Part shown: positions 20,091-24,026 of the stretch, one piece after another
Numbering within the stretch: position 1 is the first letter of the stretch
How the letters are laid out: each line of letters starts with the position of its first letter
Source of the DNA: a virus
Length of the DNA: 24,268 nucleotides
Reading direction: 5' to 3' (one strand)
Virus record (IMG/VR): IMGVR_UViG_3300013126_000239
Span: 1 to 24,268 of that record
Notes under the pieces: generated by a model
Seen by the model: only the letters and a program-made list of their open reading frames with translations
What the model was told of the DNA's origin: nothing
Database searches by the model: none
Position numbers and translations under genes: made by a program

Positions 20091-20119
20091 AACATTAATG
20101 GTTAAGTTTAAAAAATTAG

Positions 20120-20200
20120 TACCTAAGGAGAGACTCGAACTCTCACGCCTTTCGGCACTGGTTCCTAAGACCAGCGTGTCTACCATTCCACCACTTAGGC
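20120..20200 (-). tRNA. tRNA-Leu (anticodon UAG)
   Basis: The minus strand folds as a class II tRNA of 81 nt. The acceptor stem is GCCTAAG with CTTAGGT (one G-U), the anticodon stem is CTGGT/ACCAG with loop CTTAGGA, giving TAG. A long variable arm (TGCCGAAAGGCGT) follows, then a T arm GAGAG-TTCGAGT-CTCTC and discriminator A as expected for Leu. The CCA end is not encoded (CTA follows). It reads CUA codons. Confidence 0.93.
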
Positions 20201-20223
20201 ATCCGTTATTTGCTTCGTTCGGG

Positions 20224-20308
20224 CGGAAGATGTTGGATTCGAACCAACGCACCAATTTCTTGATGACGGTTTAGCAAACCGCTCCATTAACCACTCTGGC
20301 AATCTTCC
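20224..20308 (-). tRNA. tRNA-Ser (anticodon GCU)
   Basis: This is an 85-nt class II tRNA on the minus strand. The acceptor is GGAAGAT/ATCTTCC with discriminator G. The anticodon loop TTGCTAA gives GCT, there is a long variable arm, and the T arm is GTTGG-TTCGAAT-CCAAC. CCA is not encoded (CCC follows). It reads AGC and AGU, codons that are frequent in the Ser-rich tail genes. Confidence 0.93.
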
Positions 20309-20314
20309 TTTAGG

Positions 20315-20399
20315 CGGTGAGGGAGAGATTCGAACTCCCGGTACCTTGCAGTACAACGGTTTTCAAGACCGCCGCAATAGACCACTCTGCCACCTCACC
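20315..20399 (-). tRNA. tRNA-Ser (anticodon UGA)
   Basis: This is an 85-nt class II tRNA on the minus strand, 6 nt from the Ser-GCU gene. The acceptor is GGTGAGG/CCTCACC with discriminator G. The anticodon loop CTTGAAA gives TGA, and the T arm GGGAG-TTCGAAT-CTCTC has one G-U pair. CCA is not encoded. It reads UCA codons. Confidence 0.93.
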
Positions 20400-20855: not shown

Positions 20856-21649
20856 TCAAATAAATTGAGAAGCGATTTCATACAACTCTTTGTTAATTTT
20901 CAAATCTTGTTTGAAATTTTTAACACGACGAGCTTTACGAAGCTTAACACCACTAATATATTCAAAATCTCCATCAATCATTTTTTCTTGGAGTACATTA
21001 AATACATTCCACAAATCATTCCCCTCATCTTCCTTGCGAGTCGGTTTGAGAACTTCTTCAATATTGATACCATAGTCTTTAATAATATTTTGATTTTCAT
21101 TAACTTTCTCAAAACGAGTTTCAAGAGCCTTTTAGCGAACTCTACTTTTTGTTCTTGAGACAAAATAGTACTCTTAAACTTATTCATCACCTCAACTGTG
21201 ACTGGAAGCTGTTCAACTAATTCAGACACAATTGCTTGAACTTCTTCAAATGAGTAACCCATATGACGGATTTTCTTATCAGCAAAATGTTCCGTGGCAA
21301 CTACCAAACCATTAGAACAAACCAACCTAAACAAACCTGCTGTGAATTGAAAGCTATTCTTACCATCATGAGAATTTGAGATAAGAATTTGTGGGTAAAC
21401 AACATCTCTATCATTACCTTCAATTACAATATCTGGATTACGAAAAACAAGCATATGTTTTTGAAAACCTTTGTTGTGGCGGGCTTTAACTTCAACAGCT
21501 TTACTAACACCCCATCCCATTTTCTCCATATCATCAATAATACGGTCAGTTGGAATGTGAACATACTTGTCTGAAGAACCTGCCATTTTGTGAGAGGTGA
21601 AAACTGAAGGCGCTGCTTCTTTGATTTGGTTTCTTGTGAGAAATTCCAT
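20856..21649 (-). pseudogene. DUF932-type protein gene interrupted by a 1-nt frame change
   Basis: The first 173 codons from the ATG at 21649 encode a DUF932-like N-terminal part (MEFLTRNQIKEAAPSVFTSH, GWGVSKAVEVKARHNKGFQK, LFRLVCSNGLVVA). After EQKVEFAK, near 21127-21133, the first frame becomes Lys/Leu-rich nonsense. The -1 frame continues with ALETRFEKVNENQ, DEGNDLWNVFNVLQEKM and RKARRVKNFKQDLKINKELY to a TGA at 20856, a typical DUF932 C-terminal end. One added A in the run at 21130-21133 would restore about 264 aa (…EFAKKALETRF…). It may be a sequencing error, a real mutation or frameshifted expression. DUF932 proteins are phage- or plasmid-associated, with unknown function. The leader is A-rich with a TATATTTA motif at 21674-21681. 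Confidence 0.72.
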
Positions 21650-22490: not shown

Positions 22491-23279
22491 TTAATTATCA
22501 TCCAACATACTTATATCCTGCTGCTCAAGTTCCTTATAAGGACCAACTTTTAACCTATAGGCAACATCATCTTCAAGTAAGAAATAAGCAGGTTTAAAAG
22601 TATTACCTACAAATAAAACTTCTTTTTCACCAAAATCATTTACCAAGTCAGTGAATGTAGGACTAAACAGTAAATACGGATCATCCAGTGGAATAGCGAT
22701 TATAATAGGGACTCTAGTGGACATATCGTCCTTGGCCCTAATTGAGAAATTTATCGCGATATTCAAGGCTGTTGTAAAAGAATGAATACCCTTCCCACTG
22801 CGAGGAGAAACTTCTATCCCAGGATTCTTAACATATATAAGATCACCTATATCAGCGTACTTGTCCCAATCTAATTTATCAAAAGTAGAGTAAGGTAAGG
22901 TAGCTCCCCTAAAAACCATAGGAGTAGAATCAATAGATCTAGGCTGGAGATTAGATATTGTTGGGTCTAAAATCTTGGGGAATTTAGACTTTAAGGATAG
23001 GAGAGTATTAGCGCTGTCAATTAGTTCTTTAGGGGCACCTACCTCACCTCTATCACTTGCATATATACCTTCGGGTCCGGTAAATTTTCTTAGGGCGGTT
23101 AGGAGAAGGTTTTCGTCCTCTGTATTACGTTCTAACTTGTCTTCACCCCCGGTTAAAGAAAGGATACCGTCTTTAAACCAAGAAGGTATCTCATATGGTT
23201 CCTTTAAAACTGGGTCATTATCGGCAAATAGATTTTTTCCGTACTCTATTTCTTTAAGAAGTATTTTAGTAGGTCTCAT
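22491..23279 (-). CDS. Probable mono-ADP-ribosyltransferase (R-S-E type)
   Basis: The 262-aa product shows the three R-S-E landmarks of arginine-specific ADP-ribosyltransferases in order and with fitting spacing. PMVFRGATLP carries Arg124. GKGIHSFTTALNIAINFS carries the S-x-T motif at 167-169, followed by the expected helix. DFGEKEVLFVG carries the E-x-E motif, Glu218 and Glu220. T4 Alt, ModA and ModB share this logic and modify host RNA polymerase and translation-related proteins; the target here is unknown. The first 115 residues are charged and unassigned, and might serve in packaging into the virion as for Alt. The start overlaps an open 99-codon frame as TAATG, and a 28-aa peptide ends 6 nt upstream. 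Confidence 0.75.
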   Translation of the reverse strand: MRPTKILLKEIEYGKNLFADNDPVLKEPYEIPSWFKDGILSLTGGEDKLERNTEDENLLLTALRKFTGPEGIYASDRGEVGAPKELIDSANTLLSLKSKFPKILDPTISNLQPRSIDSTPMVFRGATLPYSTFDKLDWDKYADIGDLIYVKNPGIEVSPRSGKGIHSFTTALNIAINFSIRAKDDMSTRVPIIIAIPLDDPYLLFSPTFTDLVNDFGEKEVLFVGNTFKPAYFLLEDDVAYRLKVGPYKELEQQDISMLDDN

Positions 23280-23285
23280 TAAATT

Positions 23286-23372
23286 TTATCTGAATGATTC
23301 GTGTGGATACCAATCTCCATCTTCTTCAAAGTGTAGATAAGGGTAGTCGTTTTGGATTTCTTCTTCTTCCAT
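23286..23372 (-). CDS. 28-aa acidic peptide upstream of the ADP-ribosyltransferase
   Basis: An ATG at 23372 opens a 28-codon frame reading MEEEEIQNDYPYLHFEEDGD then WYPHESFR, ending 6 nt before the ADP-ribosyltransferase start. The composition (many Glu/Asp, plus aromatics) is unlike random translation of AT-rich DNA, and the tight spacing suggests coupling. A promoter-like motif lies about 38 nt upstream at 23411-23418. It might be an acidic partner or inhibitor of the enzyme, or a leader peptide; both are guesses. A longer open frame on the same strand overlaps it but looks non-coding. Confidence 0.4.
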   Translation of the reverse strand: MEEEEIQNDYPYLHFEEDGDWYPHESFR

Positions 23373-23410
23373 GGCTCATTAAATGTAAAAAGGGTTAGGG
23401 GTAACATCCA

Positions 23411-23418
23411 TAAATATA
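23411..23418 (-). promoter_or_regulatory. TATATTTA promoter-like motif before the ADP-ribosyltransferase unit
   Basis: The minus strand reads ATATTATATTTATGGATG, about 38 nt before the 28-aa peptide start. Its core matches the other TATATTTA copies. Confidence 0.4.
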
Positions 23419-23484
23419 ATATATACTTTTTTCGATACAAGAGATTTTTAAGATCTTCTCTTTTGGATCTGCGTCCTTTTAAAA

Positions 23485-23522
23485 AAATTGGCCAAATGGG
23501 AAAATTGGGATAAATTGTGGGA
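23485..23522. repeat. Four short near-repeats of AAATTG(T)GGGA
   Basis: The plus strand carries AAATTGG (23485), AAATGGGA (23494), AAATTGGGA (23502) and AAATTGTGGGA (23512) at spacings of 8-10 bp, close to one helical turn. They lie in the 360-nt gene-poor stretch 23373-23732, between the AT-hook gene and the ADP-ribosyltransferase unit. They could be operator or iteron-like binding sites; chance in AT-rich DNA is also possible. The rest of 23419-23576 shows a 6-bp inverted repeat (AAGAGA/TCTCTT) and nothing else I can support. Confidence 0.35.
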
Positions 23523-23576
23523 TATAGGTATATATTTTGTCGATGGTAAAGGATTTGTCTCCTGATTAAACACCCC

Positions 23577-23710
23577 ACAGGATGCTAACATACCCTGTCC
23601 ATATCGATGGATAACAACGATCGTGGGAGATACTTACCCACTACCCGCTACAGTAGCGGTACGTACGTACGACATAAGTAAGGTGGAATCCTTACGGACC
23701 CCACCCTACC
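23577..23710 (-). ncRNA. Candidate structured RNA: block of five consecutive hairpins
   Basis: This 134-nt stretch is GC-richer than its surroundings and can fold almost end to end in the minus-strand RNA. Hairpin 1 (23677-23710) has a 15-bp stem, GGTAGGGTGGGGTCC with GGATTCCACCTTACT, closed by a GUAA tetraloop and using four G-U pairs that exist only in minus-strand RNA. Next come a GTAC triple repeat (23659-23670), hairpin 2 (CCGCTA/TAGCGG, 23645-23659), hairpin 3 (GTGGG/CCCAC, 23623-23641), hairpin 4 (TCCAT/ATGGA, 23598-23611) and hairpin 5 (ACAGG/CCTGT, 23577-23598). It starts 22 nt beyond the AT-hook gene stop. It could be a stable 3' UTR, a processed small RNA or a regulatory element. 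No known family is recognised and no U-tract follows hairpin 1. Confidence 0.45.
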
Positions 23711-23732: not shown

Positions 23733-24026
23733 TCATGCTTTAACTTCTTGAACTTTTTTTGGACGTCCGGGCTTTCCACCACCCTGTGCTTTTGCGATCA
23801 TCAATTCCAAAATCCGCATTTGGCGCTTAGAATTTGGATTCACAGTTCCGGCTGGGCGTCCCCGCTTAATCACCTCACCATTCGCGACTCGGTTCGCCAA
23901 TTCAGCCAAACGCTTTTGACGCTTCGACTCTGGGTTGATTCCGCTACCCTTCGGGCGGCCGGGCTTACGCTTTTCAACATTCATTTTCACTTCCATCACG
24001 TTTTGGGTTTGAACTTTCTTGGACAT
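23733..24026 (-). CDS. AT-hook DNA-binding protein with internal repeats
   Basis: The 97-aa basic product contains three AT-hook cores: KPGRPKGSG (21-29), KRGRPAGT (54-61) and KPGRPKK (85-91). Between them lie two copies of a similar helical unit, INPESKRQKRLAELANRVANG and VNPNSKRQMRILELMIAKAQ, so the protein is an internally duplicated hook-helix repeat. AT-hooks bind the minor groove of AT-rich DNA, so it could coat or regulate phage or host DNA. The gene is clearly GC-richer than its neighbours, with CGC, CGA and GCC codons that are rare elsewhere in the window, which suggests recent acquisition or selection for high expression. It has its own promoter-like motif at 24066-24073. Confidence 0.75.
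   Translation of the reverse strand: MSKKVQTQNVMEVKMNVEKRKPGRPKGSGINPESKRQKRLAELANRVANGEVIKRGRPAGTVNPNSKRQMRILELMIAKAQGGGKPGRPKKVQEVKA

Follow-up and report, generated by a model that had tools for sequence, protein, structure and literature searches.

Does the gene-free block at positions 23577–23710 of the virus record IMGVR_UViG_3300013126_000239 (IMG/VR; 24,268 bases, the whole stretch analyzed here and referred to as the window) encode a structured RNA, or does it contain something else? The initial annotation had read these 134 nt as five consecutive hairpins of a minus-strand transcript, either a regulatory RNA or a protective 3' UTR. Our analysis separates the locus into two features: the first hairpin, which is supported as an RNA structure under selection on the minus strand, and a neighboring stretch at approximately 23522–23670, which is best explained as a single-copy cis-acting DNA site distinct from the adjoining hairpin. 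The parts of the locus, as read from the letters and the translated open reading frames, are the following:

23733–24026, minus strand: AT-hook gene upstream of the hairpin, an ORF translated into a 97-aa protein with repeated GRPxGS/GRPK AT-hook-like motifs; it has a relative in L004
23677–23710, minus strand: 15-bp hairpin with a GUAA loop and four G-U pairs on the minus strand, GGUAGGGUGGGGUCC-GUAA-GGAUUCCACCUUACU
23659–23670, no strand assigned: perfect 12-bp DNA palindrome GTACGTACGTAC
23600–23628, minus strand: element core CCCACGATCGTTGTTATCCATCGATATGG; family consensus CCACGCGCGYTGATRTCCAT
23522–23534, minus strand: TATATACCTATAT box, downstream of the TCCAT of the core by 77 bp
23410–23440, minus strand: second TATATA box, promoter-like (TTG ... 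TATATTTAT) and preceding the next genes, with a counterpart in many relatives
23286–23372, minus strand: small acidic ORF MEEEEIQNDYPYLHFEEDGDWYPHESFR downstream of the element; relative MDEEEITHQEWDDNDWHPHDNF in L004

The window carries T4-type baseplate wedge genes (PHROG 219 and 10646) and a primase-like gene, together with a weak late-sigma-like match, and nearly all recognizable genes in the ORF list lie on its minus strand. The nearest cultured relative is Flavobacterium phage immuto, with about 45% identity in the baseplate and DUF932 proteins, and Microcystis phage Mel-JY01 is close to the window phage by its baseplate protein. The block is indeed enriched in GC, at 50% versus a mean of 32.5% in related loci, and it lies, as described, between the AT-hook ORF and the next downstream genes; the label of ADP-ribosyltransferase given to the downstream gene found no backing in a Pfam or PHROG match. 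The 262-aa gene at 22491–23279 (minus strand), which is without a match in either collection, has relatives in several viral contigs, at times in tandem (L007), and the small acidic ORF has relatives at the equivalent position in L004 and L072-type phages. Further along the minus strand, three consecutive tRNA genes, Leu(TAG), Ser(GCT), and Ser(TGA), occupy positions 20119–20399, and the DUF932 gene at 20856–21649 is broken by a frameshift: residues up to about 176 match the relatives (ORF 20978–21649) and the C-terminal part is found in another frame (ORF 20856–21014). Either an error of assembly or a genuine break in the gene may account for this frameshift.

The 15-bp stem with its GUAA loop and four G-U pairs is present in the sequence as originally described, and its claimed strand asymmetry is recovered in folding comparisons with shuffled sequences, which give the isolated hairpin a z of −6.6 for the minus and −3.3 for the plus strand. 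The 134-nt block as a whole also folds better than shuffles (−53.7 kcal/mol; z −3.4 minus, −2.0 plus); the remaining 100 bases do not (z −0.5 minus, −0.9 plus), and of the five hairpins only the first is retained. An exact-stem pattern search of viral contigs gave no match. Homologues of the hairpin are found in L004 and L072, there too behind an AT-hook gene. In the gap-free alignment of the window, L004, and L072, a small sample of three lineages, every one of the 45 base-pair cells forms a standard pair, and both partners have changed in 7 of the 15 pairs. Neither value is attained in any of 500 shuffles, and shifting the partner by one to three columns destroys the pairing pattern.

The hairpin, which is stable and GC-rich, begins 22 nt past the stop codon of the AT-hook gene and therefore fits the 3' UTR half of the original proposal. 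Many relatives carry hairpins in the region after the upstream gene, and the stretch behind that gene has a family-wide mean folding z of −2.1 in the sense and −1.5 in the antisense orientation, the signal not being shared by every member. Its position after the stop codon, this family-wide folding signal, and the covariation lead us to read it as the end of a transcript: most probably, the RNA of the AT-hook gene closes with this hairpin, which would end or protect the transcript. The sequence following the stem in the window reads CUUAUGUCG and contains no clear U-run; clear U-tracts or T-runs are seen only in L094, L091-like, and group-2 members. The other half of the proposal, a regulatory RNA of five hairpins, is left without a fold signal or a consensus structure outside the first hairpin, and without arm-to-arm covariation at the core.

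The limit set at 23577 proved too narrow, since the conserved unit extends to at least 23522. Its first homologues came from a scan of viral contigs for GTTGTTATCCATCGA, with matches in related phages, and in loci anchored on DUF932, degenerate forms of the core lie upstream of the DUF932 gene on the same strand. The final scan pattern, TGATRTCCAT-N{58,86}-GTATATACNNATAT, returned 54 stretches, and the removal of sequences with >80% identity left a set of 46 non-redundant sequences of uncultured phages in which this non-coding element is conserved. Read along the minus strand, its parts come in the order of a hairpin after the upstream gene, a CGTACG-type palindrome, the core, a looser GGATTTAGAT-like box, and the GTATATACnTATAT box. 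The distance from the core to the TATATAC box is 76–79 bp in 44 of the 46 elements and 81 and 82 bp in the other two; in the spacing scan, 59 of 61 matches, counted over loci some of which overlap, fall on 4 neighboring values out of the 29 allowed. Because the box is held about 77 bp downstream of the core, it would lie on a fixed helical face. In 30 of 45 elements, the core is preceded at 15–75 bp by a perfect palindrome of 10 bp or more, versus 3–7 of 44–46 in control stretches. The dyad signal at the core itself is modest across the family (z 2.6); in L360 the core is an 18-bp dyad, CGTTGATGTCCATCAACG. From its sequence, the second TATATA box at 23410–23440 may act as a promoter.

Where matched, the element occurs once per genome. 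The sequence-only model of the core, R1, has exactly one match in each of 38 viral records (18/23, 6/36, and 14/14 of the records in the respective searches), including records of 180, 170, 161, 161, 156, and 140 kb. Because many of the searched records were fetched as holders of the motif, these fractions give no estimate of the presence rate, and it is the single copy that is informative. The exact motif TATATACnTATAT is also very rare outside the element in these genomes. The core model has no match in Flavobacterium phage immuto, Microcystis phage Mel-JY01, or the 484-kb record LR756508; since it also overlooked a divergent copy in G025, which was found via its TATATAC box, absence from other records is unproven. 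In Mel-JY01, an 844-bp intergenic region (L307, 1478–2322) has GC-rich and AT-rich parts and no core-model match. The bearers of the element are best described as a large, mostly uncultured phage group that has T4-type baseplate genes. A BLASTN comparison of the region with phage records gave chance-level matches only. No description of the element was found in the open-licence literature, so that it is apparently undescribed. A degenerate form of the core was also searched in GTDB genomes and set aside, the matches listed being chance-like and in GC-rich genomes. In Bradyrhizobium erythrophlei and related genomes, the degenerate pattern has many matches (L166, L178, and L179 among other loci of Bradyrhizobium); these may form a repeat family of the genus and have nothing to do with the element of the phages.

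The reading as a non-coding RNA or RNA element, transcribed on the minus strand and presenting the core as a conserved loop, could draw on the first hairpin, a genuine RNA structure, and on the inverted repeats that surround the core in some members, such as L154 and L086. Against this, and in contrast to the covariation of the first hairpin, RNAalifold returned 0 consensus base pairs in alignments of 24, 30, and 46 homologues, the latter two on both strands, and the core region folds with a mean z of −0.37 in the sense and −0.23 in the antisense orientation. A hairpin around the core was likewise given up after an arm-swap test between clades, in which the core-flanking inverted repeat showed no Watson-Crick excess (z 0.5–0.7); with G-U pairs allowed, one of three windows gave p 0.04, a nominal value among nine comparisons in all that was not counted. 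Apart from the first hairpin, a structured RNA is thus unlikely, and we give the conserved-loop reading a low probability. If the opposite strand encoded a small conserved peptide (ATG GAT AAC AAC ...), this would account for the CAT/ATG kept in 44 of 46 elements. The antisense ORFs that start at this ATG scatter in length from 5 to 95 aa with no protein conservation, codon second positions vary and many third positions are kept, and conservation continues past the ATG. The candidate peptide MDNN.. was therefore rejected as noncoding and is refuted as a conserved protein; we regard this origin of the conservation as extremely improbable. Since no RNAalifold structure is found on either strand and the antisense frame is noncoding, the element most plausibly acts as DNA, and its conserved sequence, spacing, and symmetry without RNA structure suggest a DNA site bound by a protein.

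As to function, almost every gene in eight large records is on the strand of the element. The element is always upstream of genes and codirectional with them. Several of the upstream genes encode P-loop ATPases of the RecA/KaiC/DnaB type and others often AT-hook proteins, and in 7 of 46 elements the upstream gene carries at least two GRP motifs. The downstream genes vary among phages; a DUF932 gene is found 0.2–6 kb downstream in 29 of 46 elements, and several of the other loci are too short to tell. By analogy with T4 oriF and oriG, we tentatively propose a transcription-coupled replication origin. A phage protein would bind the core, the AT-rich GTATATACnTATAT box would then open and be transcribed in the direction of the genes, and replication would be primed by the transcript from the box, as at T4 oriF. 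This proposal agrees with the single match in records of up to 180 kb, the rigid core-to-box distance, the palindrome at a fixed region, the lack of RNA consensus structure on both strands and the scattered antisense ORFs, the orientation relative to the genes, and the ATPase and AT-hook genes upstream. Points against it are the GC skew, which does not change sharply at the element but depends also on gene content and by itself neither supports nor excludes an origin, and the absence of a core-model match in the nearest cultured relatives, immuto and Mel-JY01. A promoter-like TATATAC box is present, but the sequence after it has about the A+T content of the genome (GC 0.32 versus 0.325).

Nearly as likely as the origin, and in itself doubtful, is a promoter/enhancer region. 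An activator bound at the core, and hence some 77 bp upstream of the TATATAC box, would drive transcription of the DUF932 cluster at a given stage of infection, and the site would play no part in replication. The rigid spacing and fixed helical face, the promoter-like boxes, the constant codirectional position upstream of genes, and the frequent DUF932 gene downstream would all be expected of such a region. However, the operator of a regulator would not usually occur just once in a genome as large as 180 kb, the other intergenic regions seen are much simpler than the element, and the genes downstream of it change from phage to phage. A packaging (pac/cos-like) or site-specific recombination site, recognized at two fixed points, would also explain the single copy, the palindromes, and the rigid bipartite layout. 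The element nevertheless lies well inside most large records, away from their ends, and no terminase or recombinase gene was recognized beside it among the few neighbors searched, which makes such a site rather improbable. The transcription-coupled origin remains our best guess. In its most far-reaching form, to which we give somewhat less confidence still, the element would represent a new class of phage initiation site with one copy per genome, an upstream palindrome, a dyad-like core, and the GTATATACnTATAT box at a fixed distance of about 77 bp, serving as the sole origin of a large phage group with nearly all genes on one strand.

Where replication or the main transcription program starts in large uncultured phages is mostly unknown, and the T4 origins share no motif. 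A single-copy landmark defined at the nucleotide level in genomes of up to 180 kb would offer a direct and testable handle on initiation in this phage group, and it could double as an annotation mark. The locus also illustrates that a correct observation of a hairpin can point to a quite different adjoining feature.

Both features can be compared with known systems. In agreement with the original statement that no known RNA family is recognized, the Rfam search, run at gathering and at E-value thresholds, found only tRNAs elsewhere in the window and no family at gathering score in the block. Over the first hairpin, the L20_leader (RF00558) scores weakly and at chance level (24.1 bits, E 0.017), far under its gathering score of 58.7; the match covers the hairpin only and no L20 gene is present. 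The hairpin rather resembles Rho-independent terminators and 3'-end stabilizing hairpins in being GC-rich, located just past a stop codon, closed by a GNRA loop, and covarying, but it differs from them by the lack of a clear U-tract in the window, which L094 does have. As for the DNA element, at T4 oriF and oriG a promoter stands beside an A+T-rich unwinding element, and the transcript primes replication (PMC3016281). The promoter-like motif adjoining A+T-rich DNA in the present T4-type phages may parallel this, but the flank after the box does not exceed the genome in A+T. The recombination gene uvsY sits at T4 oriF (PMC3016281), and a RecA-like ATPase gene adjoins several of the present elements. 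T4, however, has at least five origins with no common motif and a MotA box (PMC3016281), a point against the analogy, whereas the present phages have a single site, marked by its conserved core, its palindrome, and the fixed 77-bp spacing.
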